Virus record (IMG/VR): IMGVR_UViG_3300035698_024626
Location: 1-64,000 of that record
Reading direction: 5' to 3' (one strand)
Length of the DNA stretch: 64,000 bases
From: a virus
The first letter of the stretch is position 1; each line of letters begins with the position of its first letter. The notes beneath the pieces were generated by a model. That model was not told the DNA's origin. It worked only from the letters and a program-made list of their open reading frames with translations, and did no database searches. Below, one piece after another: positions 16,101 to 59,659 of the stretch. The position numbers and the translations under genes were made by a program.

Positions 16101-16217
16101 TATCTAAGTTTATGGGGAAGTGGTCTTTTCAGCAGGGGATGTTACTATGGTAGTGCTGGAACTGTGAGTTCTGCTACTATCCAGAAATACATAGAAAACC
16201 AGAAACACAATGACTAA
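16101..16217 (+). pseudogene. 3' remnant of an IS605-family tnpA
   Basis: In the frame ending TAA at 16217 the sequence reads LWGSGLFSRGCYYGSAGTVS and then SATIQKYIENQKHND, the C-terminus of a Y1 HUH transposase TnpA (compare LWSRGYFV and the terminal KYIENQ of the family). An in-frame TGA lies at 16098 and no catalytic HUH or Tyr region remains. The stub overlaps the tnpB start by eight bases. Confidence 0.8.
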
Positions 16218-17388
16218 CACCAAAGCATTCAAATACAGATTGTATCCAACCAAGAAACAAGAACAAGGTCTACAACAGACTTTGACCACTTGTAGGTTCT
16301 TGTATAACAATGCTTTGGCTCAACGAATTGACACCTACAAAAATACTCAAGAATCAGTCACTTATTGTGACCAAGCAAATACACTTGTAAAACAAAAGAA
16401 CGACTACCAAAAACAAGTCCACTCACAAGTGCTACAAGAATCACTCAAACGTCTTGACACTTCCTTTGGGAACTTCTTTCGTAGAATCAAACAACAGAAG
16501 GCAGGAAAGAAAGTCAAAGCAGGTTTCCCACGTTTCAAGCCAGACCAGCGTTACAATTCGTTCTGTTACCCACAATCAGGTTTTAGATTAACCAACGATA
16601 GTAGGAGAATTACACTCAGTAAGATTGGTGATGTAAGACTCAAATATTCAAGACCAACAGAAGGTAAGATTAAAACTTGTAGAATTGTTCGTGATGTAGA
16701 CCAATGGTTTGTGGTTCTAACTTGTGAGCAAGAAGTTTCTGAGCCACTCAAATCTACTAATCCTACAGTCGGTGTTGATGTGGGTATTAAGACCTTTGCT
16801 TTTCTTTCAGATGGAACGCAGTTTGAGAACCCACGTCATACACGGAACTCAGAAGTTAAGTTAGCACAAACACAACGTAGATTGTCACAGAAAGTAAAAG
16901 GCAGTCAGAACAGAAACAAACAACGACTTGAAGTTGGGAAGGTACATCGTAAAACACGTAGACAACGTGAGGATTTCTTACATAAGTTAAGTAGGGAGTT
17001 AGTAGACAATTACGGTTGTCTTGTGTTTGAGCAGTTAAACATTAAAGGAATGGTTCGTAATCACAAGTTAGCTAAGCATATAAGTGATTGTGCTTGGAGA
17101 AAACTAATTGAGTATACTACATACAAAGCGGAGGAAGCTGGTGTGGAAGTTAGATTAGTTAATCCCAAGAATACAACTCAGATGTGTTCAAGTTGTGGTA
17201 AGATTGTTCCAAAGACTTTAGCAGACAGAACTCATGATTGTTCTCACTGTGGCTTAGTGATGGACAGGGATTTGAATGCTGCTAAGAATATATTAAGTAG
17301 GGTAGGGACTACCCAAAGTTACGCCTATGGAGATTTAACCGCTACTCAAGGACATTGTGTTCTTGAGCAAGTTGAGTCTGTGAAGTAG
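16210..17388 (+). CDS. tnpB: TnpB RNA-guided nuclease (392 aa)
   Basis: OrfB/TnpB, ancestor group of Cas12. N-terminal KAFKYRLYPTKKQEQGLQQT is the family start. RuvC-I is VGVDVGIKTFAFLSDG (Asp), RuvC-II LVFEQLNIKGM (Glu), a zinc finger with CSSCG and CSHCG, and RuvC-III MDRDLNAAKNI (Asp), all intact. It is near the usual length of about 400 aa, so it is probably active. It cuts DNA matching its right-end-derived guide next to a short target-adjacent motif, which favours retention of the element. Confidence 0.95.
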   Translation: MTNTKAFKYRLYPTKKQEQGLQQTLTTCRFLYNNALAQRIDTYKNTQESVTYCDQANTLVKQKNDYQKQVHSQVLQESLKRLDTSFGNFFRRIKQQKAGKKVKAGFPRFKPDQRYNSFCYPQSGFRLTNDSRRITLSKIGDVRLKYSRPTEGKIKTCRIVRDVDQWFVVLTCEQEVSEPLKSTNPTVGVDVGIKTFAFLSDGTQFENPRHTRNSEVKLAQTQRRLSQKVKGSQNRNKQRLEVGKVHRKTRRQREDFLHKLSRELVDNYGCLVFEQLNIKGMVRNHKLAKHISDCAWRKLIEYTTYKAEEAGVEVRLVNPKNTTQMCSSCGKIVPKTLADRTHDCSHCGLVMDRDLNAAKNILSRVGTTQSYAYGDLTATQGHCVLEQVESVK

Positions 17389-27885: not shown

Positions 27886-29115
27886 TTAGTTCAAACTACA
27901 CGGATGTAATTCAAGACCTAATACTTCTTTTTCCTGCTTCTTAGACTGGCACTGAACCGAAGTTCTGCAACCTCCAATCTCCACAGGCGTTTTGCAAAGC
28001 AAACGAGCTTCGCTAAATTTCTGAGTGTCCCTCAGTATTTTTGTTCCTACATTTCTTATATTTACAGCAGCGTTCAAATCTCTATCCATCACTTCACCAC
28101 AATCCAAGCACTTGAACTCTCTATCTTTCAGTGTTAAGTTTTTGTTAATCCATCCACAACCACTACAAGTCTTAGATGATGGTTCAAATCTATCAATCTC
28201 AACAAGTGGTTTACCACTCCATTCTGACTTGTATCGTAGTTGTCTCTTGAACTCAAACCAACCACAATCTGAAACTGCCTTTGATAGACAATGGTTAGAC
28301 ATAATGCCCTTAATGTTCAAATCTTCCATAGCAAATCCTTCATACTTGGCTATTATATGAGCAGTTGCTTTGTGTTGAAAATCTCGTCTGACATTTCTAA
28401 CCTTTCGATGTAGTCTCTGAACTTTGTTACGCTGTTTACTTCTATTGTTACTCTCTTTCTGCTTTCTTGATAATCTTCTCTGTGCTTTCGAGAGTTGTTG
28501 TCCATACTTATTGAGTGTTTTAGGATTTTCTATGACACTCCCATCGCTCATAGTGGCATATGTCTTAATCCCTACATCAATGCCAACCAGTAAGTCTTGC
28601 TTACAAATTGGTTCTTTGACTTTGAGTTCCACATTTACGGCACAATGCCATTGCTCACCATCTTGAGAAATAGTAAGATGTTTTACTTTTCCTTTGATTG
28701 GTCTGTGCTTAACCCACTGAATTTCTCCAATCTTAGGAATGAAAACAAAATGCTTTCCTATTCTAAACTTCTGAGGCACAGCGAAACTGTCGTTTTGCTT
28801 GCCTTTCTTCTTAAACACAGGAAACCGCTTGGTCTTACTGAAACAGTCTTTGAGTGCTCTATCTAATTGACGGGCTACCTGCTGAAGTGATTGACTAAAA
28901 CTCAGTTGAAGAAAATCGTGTTCCTTCTTGAATTGTGGAAGTGAAGTAACCATATCGTGAACAAATACGAACTTCTTTTCGTTTTCGTATTTGTCTTGAT
29001 TTTGTTTAAGAAGAGCATTCCACAAGAAACGAGTATTACCACCGTGCTGTCGTAAGGCAGCAGATTGTTCCTTAGTGGGATAAAGTCTAAACTTGTATGC
29101 TCTTCTAATCTTCAC
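27886..29115 (-). CDS. tnpB: TnpB RNA-guided nuclease (409 aa)
   Basis: Starts with GTG (RRAYKFRLYPTKEQSAALRQ). RuvC-I LVGIDVGIKTYATMSDG, RuvC-II FAMEDLNIKGI, zinc finger CSGCG / CLDCG and RuvC-III VMDRDLNAAVNI are all present, so it looks intact. It differs clearly from the TnpB at 16210, so the two elements arrived separately. The guide is expected to be copied from the flank left of the 27859-27878 hairpin. Confidence 0.95.
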   Translation of the reverse strand: MKIRRAYKFRLYPTKEQSAALRQHGGNTRFLWNALLKQNQDKYENEKKFVFVHDMVTSLPQFKKEHDFLQLSFSQSLQQVARQLDRALKDCFSKTKRFPVFKKKGKQNDSFAVPQKFRIGKHFVFIPKIGEIQWVKHRPIKGKVKHLTISQDGEQWHCAVNVELKVKEPICKQDLLVGIDVGIKTYATMSDGSVIENPKTLNKYGQQLSKAQRRLSRKQKESNNRSKQRNKVQRLHRKVRNVRRDFQHKATAHIIAKYEGFAMEDLNIKGIMSNHCLSKAVSDCGWFEFKRQLRYKSEWSGKPLVEIDRFEPSSKTCSGCGWINKNLTLKDREFKCLDCGEVMDRDLNAAVNIRNVGTKILRDTQKFSEARLLCKTPVEIGGCRTSVQCQSKKQEKEVLGLELHPCSLN

Positions 29116-53456: not shown

Positions 53457-53696
53457 ATGATTAATGTAACTTTAATTACGAACAATGGTGCGGGCGTACC
53501 CGCGAGGATTCCTGTGGTCGAAGGTACGACCCTGGAAAAGTTCTTGGAAGTTTCGTTTGAAGGCGACCCGGATGAGTTCACTATTCGGGTTCGCGCCAAC
53601 GGGGAGACTGTTGAAGTCGAGCAGGATTATGTTCTCCAGGATGGGGATCGCATTTCAATGGCACCTACTAAAATTGATGGTGCAGTAGTACTGTAA
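53457..53696 (+). CDS. Ubiquitin-like (ThiS/MoaD-fold) protein (79 aa)
   Basis: MINVTLITNNGAGVPARIPV then EGTTLEKFLEVSFEG and RVRANGETVEVEQDYVLQDG, DRISMAPTKIDGAVVL: a beta-grasp domain with the ThiS/MoaD 'N-G-x(n)-D-x-x-L-x-x-G-D' pattern. The C-terminus has a single Gly and lacks Gly-Gly. With the E2-, JAB- and E1-like genes downstream it is the likely conjugated modifier. ATG at 53457 after GGGAGAATGTG. Confidence 0.75.
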   Translation: MINVTLITNNGAGVPARIPVVEGTTLEKFLEVSFEGDPDEFTIRVRANGETVEVEQDYVLQDGDRISMAPTKIDGAVVL

Positions 53697-53781: not shown

Positions 53782-54021
53782 ATGAAGGGTCCAGGAACAA
53801 AAAGTCAGCAAATCCAATCGTTGAGGGACAAGGTTGGCGCTGCCGGTGTGAAAAACGTTGACACTATCGTCAAAGATTATTCGCCAAGCGAAATTGCGTT
53901 GGCGTATAGGCTCTCTCGCAGAAGCACCGCACTTCCCAAGTCAGTTACCAATCTGTTAGGCAACCTTCCTGAAGGTGAAGCCAAGGCAATTCGCGACAAG
54001 CTTTTGGCAGCCAAGGGCTAA
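53782..54021 (+). CDS. Hypothetical protein in Ub-like cassette (79 aa)
   Basis: MKGPGTKSQQIQSLRDKVGA, then TIVKDYSPSEIALAYRLSRR; helical and basic. Strong AAAAGGAGAAGAAC site. A terminator follows. It may belong to the cassette or be unrelated; a substrate or regulator is possible. Confidence 0.5.
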   Translation: MKGPGTKSQQIQSLRDKVGAAGVKNVDTIVKDYSPSEIALAYRLSRRSTALPKSVTNLLGNLPEGEAKAIRDKLLAAKG

Positions 54022-54045: not shown

Positions 54046-54079
54046 GAGGGGGTGGGGGGAGTATTCCCCCGCCCCTTTC
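54046..54079 (+). terminator. Rho-independent terminator inside the Ub-like cassette
   Basis: GGGGGTGGGGGG, a short loop, then CCCCCGCCCC and TTTCTTT. It would reduce read-through from the Ub-like gene into the E2-like gene, keeping modifier in excess over enzymes. Confidence 0.75.
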
Positions 54080-54132
54080 TTTATGGTGCTAAAGCGGGAA
54101 GAAAACCAGAACCTATCCTCAAGGATTTTCAA

Positions 54133-54417
54133 ATGAATCAAATTACTTTGCAACCAACGATTTTCATCAACTATCCGCAGAAAAGCCTGAGAAGAATTGA
54201 GACCTACGGTTATCGTATGTACGACGACGAAGGTCAAACTTATTTCAGTAGGTGGAAGTCTATCCCCGATAATAGCCTGGAGGTTCTGAGACAAGCTCTC
54301 GAAGATGCAGATGAGGTCGCTGGAGACATGTTCAGCTACGTACTAGAACACCAATGCGGAATGAACATAGGCGACGAGTGGTATGATTGGGACGAAATTA
54401 GCCATCTGTTTGAATAG
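54133..54417 (+). CDS. Hypothetical protein in Ub-like cassette (94 aa)
   Basis: MNQITLQPTIFINYPQKSLR, then YDDEGQTYFSRWKSIPDNSL and a helical, acidic C-terminus. AAGGATTTTCAA upstream. Similar proteins next to E2-like genes would support a cassette role; not recognised here. Confidence 0.5.
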   Translation: MNQITLQPTIFINYPQKSLRRIETYGYRMYDDEGQTYFSRWKSIPDNSLEVLRQALEDADEVAGDMFSYVLEHQCGMNIGDEWYDWDEISHLFE

Positions 54418-54430
54418 GCAGAAATTCGTT

Positions 54431-55621
54431 ATGAACGAAAAACTAATACAACGTGCTGCGATTAAATACCAGCAGTGGATGGTTGCCGAATCGCATCGCC
54501 CATGCTGTATTTCCAAAAACACAATCGACAACCATCTCGCAACGGTCTCACTCCAAGTGAGCCAAATGCAAACATGGAGCGAACGGTTTTTTCGCGGTCA
54601 ATACCCCCGTGTCACTCACGGTCTCCTCGGCCCAGAAGTATACAAAAACATTGCCACGAATATGATCCCCGCTTTGGGGATCGATGCGGTAAATGGCATC
54701 AACCTCGCAATTAAAACCCTCAAGAAAATAATAAAAAACACAATCTCACCCATCACACTAAGAGGAGCAATCGAGGAAATCACGATCGTCACCAAAGCAT
54801 GGCAAAGGGTTAAATTCAAAGACAACACGCTGGCAGTTCTCATTTCCGATGTCACCTTGTCTGACGAAAACCAAGAGGTAAACTTAGGAAGCTTTTGGAT
54901 ACATTTGAACCTTACTAATCCCAACGAAGAGTTAAGAACCTACTCGGTCGATGAGGTTATGTCGGAAGATGGCAACTACTGCCACCCTCATATAACAAAC
55001 GGTGAACTCTGCGAAGGTGATGGCAAGTATCTGATGCAAGAAGCTCTTAGTCAAGGCCGGTTGGAAGATTACTTTAGAATTGTCGAAGCTATCCTTAGAA
55101 CGTACAACTATAAATCCCCCTACGCAAAACTCGAAGAATGGTATAATCCTTCACATGAAAGCGAATTCTACTGCGAACAATGCGACGAGTGGCGACTTGA
55201 AGAGGATGGGTGTTGGTGCGAAGGGTGTCAAACACAACACTGTGAGTCCTGCGCTGCCGGTGGTTGCTGTATCGACTGTGGCGAATGGAACTGCGACGAG
55301 TGTGGTAAGTATTGTAGCGACTGTGGAGAAAGAGTGTGTCATGATTGTGTAAGTGATTGCGAGGATTGTGGCAATCACCTTTGTTCATCATGTCTGGTTG
55401 GGTGCTCAAACTGTGCAAATTATTACTGTAAACATTGTATAGTGTCCTGTGATGATTGCGGTGACAACATATGCAAAGAATGTCGAATAGAATGCGACGA
55501 GTGTAGGAAAACTCTGTGCCCTGAGTGTGTACAAAAGTGTTGTGATGAATGTGGTCGAGAATTGTGCGATAATTGTATTAAGCAGGATTGTGGCTGTTTA
55601 CTAACAAAAATGGACAAATAA
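54431..55621 (+). CDS. E2-like conjugating enzyme fused to a cysteine-rich array (396 aa)
   Basis: Residues about 115-237 look like a bacterial E2 (UBC) fold: a core strand region (FWIHLNLTNPNEELRTYSVD), then YCHPHITNGELCEGDGKYLM with the E2-like H-P-H-x-x-x-G-x-x-C and candidate catalytic Cys194, then EDYFRIVEAILRTYNYKSPY and LEEW. Residues 248-388 form about eight CxxC-type units spaced about 20 residues apart (CEQCDEW, CEGCQTQHCESC, CDECGKYCSDCG and so on), RING/treble-clef-like, possibly an E3-like or target-binding part. Residues 1-110 are unrecognised. Confidence 0.7.
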   Translation: MNEKLIQRAAIKYQQWMVAESHRPCCISKNTIDNHLATVSLQVSQMQTWSERFFRGQYPRVTHGLLGPEVYKNIATNMIPALGIDAVNGINLAIKTLKKIIKNTISPITLRGAIEEITIVTKAWQRVKFKDNTLAVLISDVTLSDENQEVNLGSFWIHLNLTNPNEELRTYSVDEVMSEDGNYCHPHITNGELCEGDGKYLMQEALSQGRLEDYFRIVEAILRTYNYKSPYAKLEEWYNPSHESEFYCEQCDEWRLEEDGCWCEGCQTQHCESCAAGGCCIDCGEWNCDECGKYCSDCGERVCHDCVSDCEDCGNHLCSSCLVGCSNCANYYCKHCIVSCDDCGDNICKECRIECDECRKTLCPECVQKCCDECGRELCDNCIKQDCGCLLTKMDK

Positions 55622-55626
55622 AATCA

Positions 55627-56379
55627 TCATAAGCGATAATCATGAATTTTTTGGACGAGAGCAAGAAATTCGTCGGGCGTTTGATCAGCCTTCATTTTAT
55701 TCACATCCCTCGTTACCCATTCTAGATTGGTTATATTTGAGGCTAGATCAGGGAACTTAGCTCGTGGAAATTTATGATCTAATGAATCGTTCAACCCCAA
55801 TATGAGATGCTCACCGGTATATGGACATTTCCAATCTTGTGATTCCAACAAGGCCAGTAATGTTTGCCAATAGCCAACCGTTTTCAAATGATAACGAGAC
55901 TTATTCTTGATGTAACAGACCTGGCATAAAACAGCATAATGCATCCTGTAATTTTTCCCACAATAATGGCATAAACCGGCATCTGTCAATGATGCCCTAC
56001 GTTGCTTTTCCCAATTCCTTATTCTCATCAAACAGGATTCACATGATTTTTTACCAGAAGTTTTTCCGCCACATTGACCACACAATCCTTGTCTAATCCA
56101 AGTATCTCGTCGTTGTTTACAATAAGCATTTTTCTGCTCTAAACAACTAGAACAGCGAGTACGCCCGTGCTCAACCTTCTGATTACATTGCACACACTGC
56201 CCTTGGATTTTCCTTTTTTCTATTGCAATAAGTAATTGATGACATCTTTTGTTAGCGCACTTGTCACAATACGCCCCGCCATCTGTTTTAACTCCACATG
56301 AGAGACACAAGTGCTTCTTACGTCTTGCCTGAGAGTATTCTTTTGAGTATTCACGAAATTTCTCTTTAGTCCACGCCAT
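55627..56379 (-). CDS. HNH endonuclease with zinc-ribbon repeats (250 aa)
   Basis: Antisense to its neighbours. Four or more CxxC zinc ribbons (LCLSCGVKTDGGAYCDKCAN, QCVQCNQKVEHGRTRCSSCL) precede an HNH-type core WKCPYTGEHLILGLNDSLDH then NITNLEWVTRDVNKMK. The ATG at 56379 is seven bases from a GGTGTATAAT box with no ribosome binding site, so it is likely leaderless. A free-standing mobile gene inserted between the E2- and JAB-like genes. Confidence 0.85.
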   Translation of the reverse strand: MAWTKEKFREYSKEYSQARRKKHLCLSCGVKTDGGAYCDKCANKRCHQLLIAIEKRKIQGQCVQCNQKVEHGRTRCSSCLEQKNAYCKQRRDTWIRQGLCGQCGGKTSGKKSCESCLMRIRNWEKQRRASLTDAGLCHYCGKNYRMHYAVLCQVCYIKNKSRYHLKTVGYWQTLLALLESQDWKCPYTGEHLILGLNDSLDHKFPRAKFPDLASNITNLEWVTRDVNKMKADQTPDEFLALVQKIHDYRL

Positions 56380-56386
56380 CGCAAAT

Positions 56387-56392
56387 ATTATA
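56387..56392 (-). promoter_or_regulatory. -10-like box GGTGTATAAT of leaderless HNH gene
   Basis: Minus strand TTTGGTGTATAATATTTGCG then ATG. The start of transcription should fall at or beside the ATG. Confidence 0.55.
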
Positions 56393-56423
56393 CACCAACT
56401 CAAACCCTTTTAAGGAGAAAAAG

Positions 56424-57350
56424 ATGGATATGACAAAAAAAACTTTAAAAATCACAAAGCCCAAAACATCTTATGCCGACACGCTAAGAATTTCACCATT
56501 CGCTTTTGCAAAGATACGGTATTGGAGAGACTATGGGGACGTAGAGGTGGCGGCATATGCCACAACTGGAACAGATAATCCTCTGCTCATTACTGACTTT
56601 CGACTAATTAAGCAACAATCCTCAATAGGAGACTTTGATCTCGATCCTAATGATTTAGCCAAAGATGTCGAACGCACACTAGATGATGGGCTATGCCCAT
56701 GGCAGACCCACAACATCTTGGTGCACAGTCACCCAGGCAATTGCCCAAACCCATCTGGCACTGACGAACATAACTTTCAGAAAGCATTTTCCCATCCTGA
56801 TTGGGCAATCATGTTGATTATAGCCCAAGATGATTCTATGTATTGTCGTCTAAAACTCAACACCGGCCCAGGCGCAGAAAAACTACTGAAAGTCCAAATT
56901 GATTTTAGTCAAGAATTCCAAGCCTCCGACCATACGGCGTGGAAAACAGAGTACGAAAAGAAGGTTACAAAACAGCAATTCTTTATGATTGATGAAGAAG
57001 GCTTCTCAGCACAAGCACGAATACCAACAAACAAGATACAAACCGCCTGGGAAAAATACCTTGAAGGGTCTAATGACAACCAAGACATGGAACTTGACTG
57101 CGACTGGGATGAAGACGGAGCCGTTTCCTGTTTCAACGATGAAGACGGTACGTGGTATGTGTATGATCCTGTTACTCGACAGTGGTATGTAGAAGACCTT
57201 TTCGGTAATGATGAACACGTATCAGAAATCCAAGCTCCAAATGGACCATGGACAGCAAAAATCCTAGCGTGGGCAGAAAAACACGCTGATGAACGCAAAT
57301 TGGCAATGGAACGAAAGGACGATTATAATCGCAGTGGTTGCAGACCATAG
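56424..57350 (+). CDS. JAMM/JAB-domain peptidase (308 aa)
   Basis: The N-terminal half is a JAB/MPN domain: candidate Glu41 in DVEVAAYATTG, and the canonical JAMM motif H101-x-H103-x7-S111-x2-D114 in LVHSHPGNCPNPSGTD. Such zinc peptidases cut after Ub-like tails, either maturing the modifier or removing it from targets. The C-terminal ~170 residues hold an acidic part and repeats like GTWYVYDPVTRQWYVEDLF. AAGGAGAAAAAG before the ATG. Confidence 0.9.
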   Translation: MDMTKKTLKITKPKTSYADTLRISPFAFAKIRYWRDYGDVEVAAYATTGTDNPLLITDFRLIKQQSSIGDFDLDPNDLAKDVERTLDDGLCPWQTHNILVHSHPGNCPNPSGTDEHNFQKAFSHPDWAIMLIIAQDDSMYCRLKLNTGPGAEKLLKVQIDFSQEFQASDHTAWKTEYEKKVTKQQFFMIDEEGFSAQARIPTNKIQTAWEKYLEGSNDNQDMELDCDWDEDGAVSCFNDEDGTWYVYDPVTRQWYVEDLFGNDEHVSEIQAPNGPWTAKILAWAEKHADERKLAMERKDDYNRSGCRP

Positions 57351-57701: not shown

Positions 57702-58358
57702 ATGACCATAATCGCAGACAGAAATATCCGCCAACGCGAACTTATCCCTCCAGACAAACTAGCACAAACAAGAATCACATTAATAGGTGTGGGCGCAATA
57801 GGCCGTCAAGCTGCGTTACAATTAAGTGCTATCGGCGTGCCCAAACTTCAATTGATAGACTTTGATTTTGTTGCGCCTGAAAATCTCGCTGCTCAAGGCT
57901 TTTATGAGCAAGACCTAAACTCGCCAAAAGTCGAAGCCGTAGCTAATGTTTGCAGAGCAATCAACTCAGAAATCGAAGTAACCACTGCAAATAAACGATT
58001 CACGGGGTTGCAATTTACTGGAGGTGTGATTTTTTGCTGTGTCGATAAAATCGAAACTCGCAGATCAATCTTCAATTCTGTAAAAAATCGTGCCAACTTG
58101 TGGATTGACTCCAGAATGTCTGCTGAGTACCTGCGGATACTAACAATCTATGATAATCCCTCCCAGGAATACTATTTGACAACTCTATTCCCTGCCGCAG
58201 AAGCATACCAAGGAAGTTGCACAAACAAAAGTATCATTTATTGTGCCAATATCGCCGCAGGAATGATGGTAGCACAGTTCGCCAAATGGCTTCGTGGATG
58301 CGACCTCAACATGGACATTGATCTTAATCTTCTCACCAATGAAATGGGAGTAAAATAA
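57702..58358 (+). CDS. ThiF/E1-like activating enzyme (218 aa)
   Basis: Adenylation fold: GVGAIGRQAALQLSAIGVPK (GxGxxG, residues 29-34), LIDFDFVAPENLAAQGFYEQ (Asp and Asn of the ATP site), FCCVDKIETRRSIF (Asp115), and a C-terminal GSCTNKSIIYCANIAAGMMV with Cys173 as candidate thiol. It would adenylate the C-terminus of the Ub-like protein and pass it to the E2. AAGGAGAAAAAA before the ATG. Confidence 0.9.
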   Translation: MTIIADRNIRQRELIPPDKLAQTRITLIGVGAIGRQAALQLSAIGVPKLQLIDFDFVAPENLAAQGFYEQDLNSPKVEAVANVCRAINSEIEVTTANKRFTGLQFTGGVIFCCVDKIETRRSIFNSVKNRANLWIDSRMSAEYLRILTIYDNPSQEYYLTTLFPAAEAYQGSCTNKSIIYCANIAAGMMVAQFAKWLRGCDLNMDIDLNLLTNEMGVK

Positions 58359-58796
58359 ATGCTTACCTGTCCACTGTGCAACGGAGATGCAGAAGAATCT
58401 GGTACGCCAGATAAAATAACGTGCCTTTTCTGTGGTTATGAAGGCCTAGATGGGGGTAAAATATTCAAGACGGTTCGCATCTTAATGAAATCACGAGGAA
58501 AAGCAATCAATATCAACGTAATAGCATTAACCTTCGAAGAAGCATTTGGTTTCGTAGAAAAACACAATCTACGGGTAGACCCACTAATTGTGAAATGCGA
58601 CGACCCCCCAGGATACCGAAAAAAACACTGGCATGTGGGACAAACCGTACTCTCAAGCAACGGGTGGACTAATATTTCCAATTGGCTTGTCAAAGGGAAA
58701 ACAGCACTAGAAGCCATCTCTATCACAAAATCATTCATAGAAACAGGGGAAAACCATAAACTATACAACGAAGGTGTTCTCAACAAATCGGAGTGA
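58359..58796 (+). CDS. Zinc-ribbon hypothetical protein (145 aa)
   Basis: MLTCPLCNGDAEESGTPDKI then CLFCGYEG; the rest is alpha/beta with WHVGQTVLSSNGWTNISNWL. Starts one base after the E1-like stop, so it is co-transcribed. Function unknown. Confidence 0.6.
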   Translation: MLTCPLCNGDAEESGTPDKITCLFCGYEGLDGGKIFKTVRILMKSRGKAININVIALTFEEAFGFVEKHNLRVDPLIVKCDDPPGYRKKHWHVGQTVLSSNGWTNISNWLVKGKTALEAISITKSFIETGENHKLYNEGVLNKSE

Positions 58797-59659
58797 AAGA
58801 TGTAGCAGTCTTGTGCCAGACATTAAACGAGGTTAATATTACGATGCGAAGCATGTCAGGACAGGAAACGCTAGGAATTGATGATTGGTATAATGTATGG
58901 AACGACACCAATGATTATAACGATTCGTGCGTTATTCGAGTAACAAATAAATGTAACGAGCAATGTCAACATTGCTGCTTTAGGTCAGGCCCCCTATGGA
59001 AAAAATATATATCAACTGAAAAAGCCATTAAGATAAATCAATGGTTGCCTAAAAAAATCACAATGTATATTATGGGGGGCGAATTTACCGTCTTAAAAAA
59101 TTATCCCGAAATTATATTAGCTTTAACGAAAAATAGAAAAAAAGTTCGTCTAGCTACTAACGGCCAATGGGCAACAACAAAAAAGAAATTACAAAAATTT
59201 GTCACAACTGTCAAACAAATCAAGAAGAATTGTAATGACTTAGATATATCCATTTCCGATGATCAATGGCATATCTCAAAAGGGGCAGTTAGTAAATATA
59301 AATTTATCAAATATAACACTGGCATCCCCGTTGCATTAAATCAAAACTGTAATCCAGCACCCATAGGAAGAGCGTGGGATAACAAATTAGTGTGTTTCCC
59401 AGAAATGTATGCATTATGTAAAACAAAAAAGTATTTAATTATAACAGAAGATAGTATGATCCATAGATGCTCATCCGGGTATTTCCCTTGGAAATCTTTC
59501 GAAGAAACCACTTGGGATGATGCCAGAGATTATATCTGGAGATGGAGATCAGAAAAACTTTCAGAAGGCATGAATTGCCATATTTGCATGGAAATAGTAG
59601 CAGCAGCTCGACATAGAATCGTTGGAAGTGAAGCACCACCAAACACAAAAGAGGAATAA
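58793..59659 (+). CDS. Radical SAM enzyme (288 aa)
   Basis: IRVTNKCNEQCQHCCFRSGP carries the CxxxCxxC cluster, followed by MYIMGGEFTVLKNYPEIILA and VRLATNGQWATTKKK typical of the radical SAM barrel. Extra C-terminal cysteines (HRCSSGYF, MNCHICMEI) hint at an auxiliary site. GTG start overlaps the previous stop; ATG 58844 after GAGG is an alternative. Substrate unknown; it may modify a small phage peptide. Confidence 0.85.
   Translation: MKDVAVLCQTLNEVNITMRSMSGQETLGIDDWYNVWNDTNDYNDSCVIRVTNKCNEQCQHCCFRSGPLWKKYISTEKAIKINQWLPKKITMYIMGGEFTVLKNYPEIILALTKNRKKVRLATNGQWATTKKKLQKFVTTVKQIKKNCNDLDISISDDQWHISKGAVSKYKFIKYNTGIPVALNQNCNPAPIGRAWDNKLVCFPEMYALCKTKKYLIITEDSMIHRCSSGYFPWKSFEETTWDDARDYIWRWRSEKLSEGMNCHICMEIVAAARHRIVGSEAPPNTKEE

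Follow-up and report, generated by a model that had tools for sequence, protein, structure and literature searches.

A phage gene cassette with a predicted E2-like enzyme fused to a long C-terminal CxxC array

Bacterial operons that combine a ubiquitin-like modifier (Ubl) with E1, E2 and JAB proteins are established and fall into types 6a-6e (Iyer, Burroughs and Aravind 2006, PMC1779556). Like the phage locus described here, these operons carry a Ubl with a C-terminal Gly, an E1-like protein, an E2-like protein and a JAB, and all four are found in type 6d. In the operon section and table passages of that paper, however, no type includes a fusion of an E2 to a Cys array, a treble-clef-like protein appears only as a separate gene in type 6e, and the type 6d E2 is without the active-site His that is present in the phage E2 (PMC1779556). 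The bacterial ubiquitination-like immune systems Bil and Bub (PMC13373217) likewise have their own Ubl, E1 and E2, together with a JAB-type peptidase. Unlike Bil and Bub, the phage E2 and Ubl match no PADLOC model, and the cassette occurs in phages and bacteria alike; in PADLOC the phage E1 matches BilD at 2.1e-6, weaker than the CBASS E1-E2 models at 1e-13, and with no match to BilA or BilB this weak likeness to BilD is the only one to Bil. In the archaeon Caldiarchaeum, an E1/E2/small-RING ubiquitylation cascade has been reconstituted, so that E1, E2 and a small zinc E3 are likewise found jointly in a prokaryote; its RING is reportedly a separate protein, whereas the predicted zinc repeats of the phage proteins are fused to the E2 and comprise 17-21 CxxC motifs (PMC5654768). 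Our search of the non-subscription literature turned up neither an E2 joined to a long CxxC array nor a phage cassette of this kind. Prokaryotic RING fingers that accompany E1, E2, JAB and Ubl were reportedly described by Burroughs, Iyer and Aravind in 2011, mainly as separate or single RING domains; those systems likewise pair predicted bacterial E2s with binuclear treble-clef partners. In eukaryotes, the E2-E3 hybrids BIRC6 and UBE2O hold E2 and ligase functions in a single chain; they differ from the phage E2 in being much larger, in working with eukaryotic ubiquitin and in having no zinc-repeat array.

The stretch of DNA analysed here (the window, 64,000 nt) is part of a 76.8-kb virus record, and we take it to be a phage contig because it encodes packaging proteins, a terminase large subunit (phrog_2, 1.9e-25) and a portal (8e-12). 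The cassette runs in the order Ubl, small helical protein, E2-array, JAB peptidase and E1, with the Ubl, the 79-aa helical protein, the JAB and the E1 all on the strand of the E2-array gene:

53457-53696, plus strand: Ubl, ubiquitin-like beta-grasp modifier, 79 aa, ending in TKIDG followed by AVVL
53782-54021, plus strand: 'GPGT', small helical accessory protein, 79 aa
54431-55621, plus strand: E2-like enzyme with C-terminal CxxC array, 396 aa
54437-54739, plus strand: its N-terminal helical hairpin, residues 3-103 (AlphaFold2: helices 3-56 and 68-103)
54758-55141, plus strand: its predicted E2-fold domain, residues 110-237: helix, four strands, active-site loop, helices (AlphaFold2, hhalign)
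54983-55012, plus strand: its HPHITNGELC active-site motif, HPH at 185-187, predicted catalytic Cys194
55172-55576, plus strand: its 17 CxxC motifs, residues 248-382, predicted zinc-binding treble-clef-like repeats
55589-55597, plus strand: its terminal CxC (387/389), HxC in most phage relatives (alignment)
55627-56403, minus strand: HNH endonuclease, between E2 and JAB (phrog_10378 HNH, 2e-5)
56424-57350, plus strand: JAB/JAMM peptidase (Pfam Prok-JAB PF14464, 3e-5, just under the cut-off)
57702-58358, plus strand: E1-like adenylating enzyme, ThiF family (Pfam ThiF PF00899, 3.5e-27)

The reading frame given by the first-pass annotation, 54431-55621 on the plus strand, and its HPHITNGELC site were both confirmed: the start at 54431 (MNEKL...) agrees with the relatives, the longest ORF opening at 54383. 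H185, P186, H187 and C194 are invariant in an alignment of 18 sequences, and the HPHxxxxLCxG site is kept across 47 relatives (each motif listed), with HPH in place of the HPN of canonical E2s, which exchanges the oxyanion Asn for His. The same annotation had called the domain around this site E2-like, and several lines of evidence agree. An AlphaFold2 model built with 18 homologues and without metal has a mean pLDDT of 86.8 (a model from seven sequences averaged 61, yet its array reached 75-88 over most of its length). E2 enzymes are ordered as a helix, four strands, an active-site loop and helices (alpha-beta4-alpha), and the modelled region matches this topology, with a helix at 110-123, strands at 127-130, 133-144, 149-160 and 168-172, and helices at 198-207 and 211-223. 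When a 40-sequence profile was compared by hhalign with a canonical planctomycete UBC profile (itself made of UQ_con matches), they aligned with a probability of 66.6 and P 5.4e-5, HPH lying over HPN, Cys over Cys and a downstream N-x-x-S-P motif also in line; two control comparisons gave P 0.44 and 0.21, and a distant planctomycete relative aligned over 112 columns at P 8.6e-10. The domain has no match among Pfam, NCBIfam, PADLOC or PDB profiles, searches of its own contig with PF14461 and PF00179 gave none either, and a fold search of the whole model against PDB listed no E2 structure, its matches being dominated by the helical hairpin and the array. Altogether, the motif, the predicted topology, one profile comparison and the Ubl/JAB/E1 gene context support an E2-like enzyme.

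C-terminal to this domain, the CxxC motifs start at successive distances of 15, 8, 9, 8, 7, 8, 7, 8, 7, 8, 7, 8, 7, 8, 8 and 8 residues. The array therefore repeats as CxxC-x4-CxxC-x3 with a period of 15 residues (7+8): it is as regular as first described, the spacing then given as about 20 residues needs correcting, and the count of about eight units stands if a unit is taken as two CxxC. The regularity is not due to chance, because 14/16 spacings are 7 or 8 whereas 20,000 shuffles of the array tail itself averaged 0.58 such spacings and never had more than 6. Hydrophobic residues recur at positions 8 and 13 of the repeat; apart from these two positions and the Cys, the repeats diverge freely, and the Cys positions are retained across 18-47 homologues. 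In the 18-homologue model the array has a pLDDT mostly of 78-92, with short strands around the CxxC turns, so that the disordered tail named earlier as an outcome that would count against a scaffold is not what this metal-free model predicts. Recent tandem duplication of the units was considered and rejected: two units taken from the same protein resemble each other no more closely than two from different proteins (0.106 vs 0.108), so that the expansion of the array is old.

The array opens as C-x2-C-x11-C-x2-C-x4-C-x2-C, its CxxC pairs having cross-brace spacing. A profile of the first 62 residues (40 sequences) compared with PDB matched the B-box of Midline-1 best (1.4e-4), then the FYVE domain of RUFY1 (2.6e-4), with RING and PHD fingers weaker; Pfam B-box models match 18-19/40 array members (best 3.9e-6), and by Foldseek the model partly matched a FYVE-type domain (prob 0.96, E 1.2). 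When all letters other than Cys were shuffled, one of ten such sequences still matched B-box, at 1.4e-3; the Cys pattern is thus part of the signal and not all of it, since 1/10 shuffles match as against 18-19/40 members, and Cys spacing largely drives the B-box/FYVE similarity. Pfam RING matches weakly in a few array members and in the window copy has no match. The earlier proposal of a tandem RING/B-box-like or treble-clef scaffold thus holds for the fold class, through B-box, FYVE, RING and PHD matches. Sequence profiles and the model support binuclear treble clefs of the B-box/FYVE/RING kind, an assignment at the level of fold class that does not imply E3 activity.

The flanking genes would supply the other parts of a conjugation system. 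Pfam ThiS matches 15/15 Ubl members (best 1.3e-4), the window copy falling below the cut-off, and in all 15 listed Ubls a variable tail of additional residues comes after a conserved K[IV][ED]G. Judged from these sequences, the short tail after the conserved Gly would need removal, and such extensions would fit maturation by the JAB after the Gly. The JAB has a complete JAMM motif, E...HxH-x7-S-x2-D (E41, H101, H103, S111, D114), invariant in three phages, and the E1 has GxGxxG at 29-34 and a candidate catalytic C173, which is among the residues invariant in an alignment of 8 sequences. Homologues of 'GPGT' were found by tblastn at the equivalent place in L002, L033 and L034. In L034 (4870-5346) the Ubl reading frame continues into an 80-aa 'GPGT' domain, which the window, L002 and L033 encode as a gene of its own, and this fusion is a candidate natural JAB substrate. 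No separate RING or E3 gene was recognised in the cassette operon. An ORF in the gap between Ubl and E2 (54052-54417) was rejected as a cassette gene, having no family match and not being seen in relatives. The HNH gene is probably a mobile insertion outside the cassette, because minus-strand CxxC-rich HNH-like genes lie near the equivalent place in L002, L015 and L036 and none is listed between E2 and JAB in L003, L008, L010 and L034.

Searches of phage and viral collections with the single protein found no relatives; these were recovered via the E1, followed by small alignments, including of the E2 domain without the array. The search proposed earlier, for E2s with the same C-terminal array, thereby succeeded: with the window's own there are twelve distinct phage E2s, all carrying the array (17-21 CxxC), and an E1-based genome scan found the cassette also in Planctomycetota MAGs. 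Surveyed with the E2-domain profile and no CxxC filter, 15 of the 392 sampled Planctomycetota genomes match, one with six copies; among the 27 strong matches examined, 26 have 8-10 CxxC and one (L056) ends early after four. The list of 47 motifs was preselected for at least 6 CxxC, so the constancy of the array was judged on this unfiltered survey instead, and every intact member has the E2 fused to the array. The Ubl-E2array-JAB-E1 cassette is itself conserved in phage contigs and Planctomycetota. The protein is thus unlike the usual compact bacterial E2, as first noted, without being unique, for it belongs to a family common to phages and Planctomycetota. In a tree of the E2 domain with the array left out (47 rows), a single branch with support 99/98 separates phage (12) from bacterial (35) sequences, and array length tracks this split, the phage arrays (17-21 CxxC) being about twice as long as the bacterial ones (8-10). 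Two departures from the common form were seen. In L031 and L032 (5368-6739) two overlapping frames share the array, one with 6 and the other with 13 CxxC; a frameshift mutation, programmed frameshifting or an assembly error could account for this. Three weak matches from one Planctomycetota genome (L062, L069, L073) represent another E2-like protein (HPHPHVAH...CLG), whose Cys-rich tail is of a different type and whose gene has a JAB gene downstream of it.

We consider it rather probable that the phage carries a complete Ubl conjugation cassette whose E2 has a built-in zinc arm, E3-like or substrate-binding. In this scheme the Ubl would be cut by the JAB behind its conserved Gly, adenylated by the E1, handed on to Cys194 of the E2 and from there attached to target proteins, from which the JAB may also remove it. 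The fused zinc array would position targets or the charged E2, replacing a separate E3; E2 and E3 functions in one chain are plausible because the operon showed no stand-alone RING gene. The phage arm would have been lengthened from ~5 zinc sites in bacteria to ~9-11, and may reach more or different targets during infection. We infer zinc binding, conjugation, the E3-like role and the role in infection. A further proposal, which we hold tentatively, is that phages took a planctomycete E2-E3 cassette and lengthened its zinc arm, so that the enzyme would act processively or on several targets and tag proteins of the host or the phage in the course of infection. If true, this would be a self-contained ubiquitin-like ligase that evolved in viruses and whose substrate arm is built of repeats. 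A family with short bacterial and long phage arrays is tractable for studying whether E3 function can arise when an E2 gains an arm of zinc repeats, since nature already provides the difference in repeat number as a ready-made experiment; it bears on the origins of E3 ligases and on the use of ubiquitin-like tagging by phages.

It is somewhat unlikely, in our judgement, that the Ubl is conjugated while the array is not E3-like and serves instead in oligomerisation or as a scaffold on which E1, JAB, nucleic acid or a phage structure docks. Treble clefs do serve many non-ligase roles, E2-binding residues cannot be assigned in repeats that diverge except at the Cys and two hydrophobic positions, and the N-terminal helical hairpin of the model could equally bind targets; against this, the array adjoins the E2 in every intact member and no further E3 candidate was recognised in the operon. 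A metallothionein-like metal sponge, or a flexible tail of no defined fold, is improbable. The array is 24-26% Cys, acidic and low in hydrophobicity, one of its viral-structure matches is annotated as a prokaryotic metallothionein, and the AlphaFold2 model was built without metal; yet the strict CxxC-x4-CxxC-x3 register with its hydrophobic positions 8 and 13, the Cys kept in 18-47 homologues, the constant fusion to the E2 and the confident, regular strands of the model all argue against such a tail, and a fixed register with an ordered model does not place the protein among the metallothioneins. Sulfur transfer of the ThiS/MoaD/ThiF kind, rather than protein conjugation, is very improbable: the nearest Pfam family of the Ubl is ThiS and the nearest E1 models are ThiF/MoeB, but the cassette genes include no recognised sulfurtransferase, rhodanese or cofactor gene, an E2-like protein and a JAB accompany the cassette in phages and bacteria, and the listed Ubls bear a tail needing cleavage that mature ThiS and MoaD are without.

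Homologues suggest that the host of the phage is probably a member of the Planctomycetota. In the phage collection the relatives of the window's terminase are all distant, the best at 27% identity. Just 3' of the E1, a radical SAM protein (58793-59659) has prokaryotic viperin as its best PADLOC match (1.4e-8); such a gene beside the E1 was not recognised in the ORF lists of L002 and L003. Two TnpB-like transposon proteins of the IS200/IS605 OrfB type (by eye) lie at 16210-17388 (plus strand) and 27886-29115 (minus strand).

Other phages also carry related gene sets. The Xanthomonas phage PhiXhv-15 (L005, 2748-6627) encodes a Ubl ending in GG, a large HPH...LC E2-like protein with a Cys-rich tail, and an E1, no JAB being recognised in this locus; the hhalign comparison with its E2-like protein is weak (P 0.035), and we read it as a second phage lineage with a cysteine-ended E2. 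Candidate Ubl-like, E2-like, JAB and E1 proteins also occur together in the crAss-like phage cr85_1 (L004, 2999-6714) and in a further phage locus, L038 (4623-8630), where they are annotated as thiamine biosynthesis or hypothetical proteins and have no Cys array.
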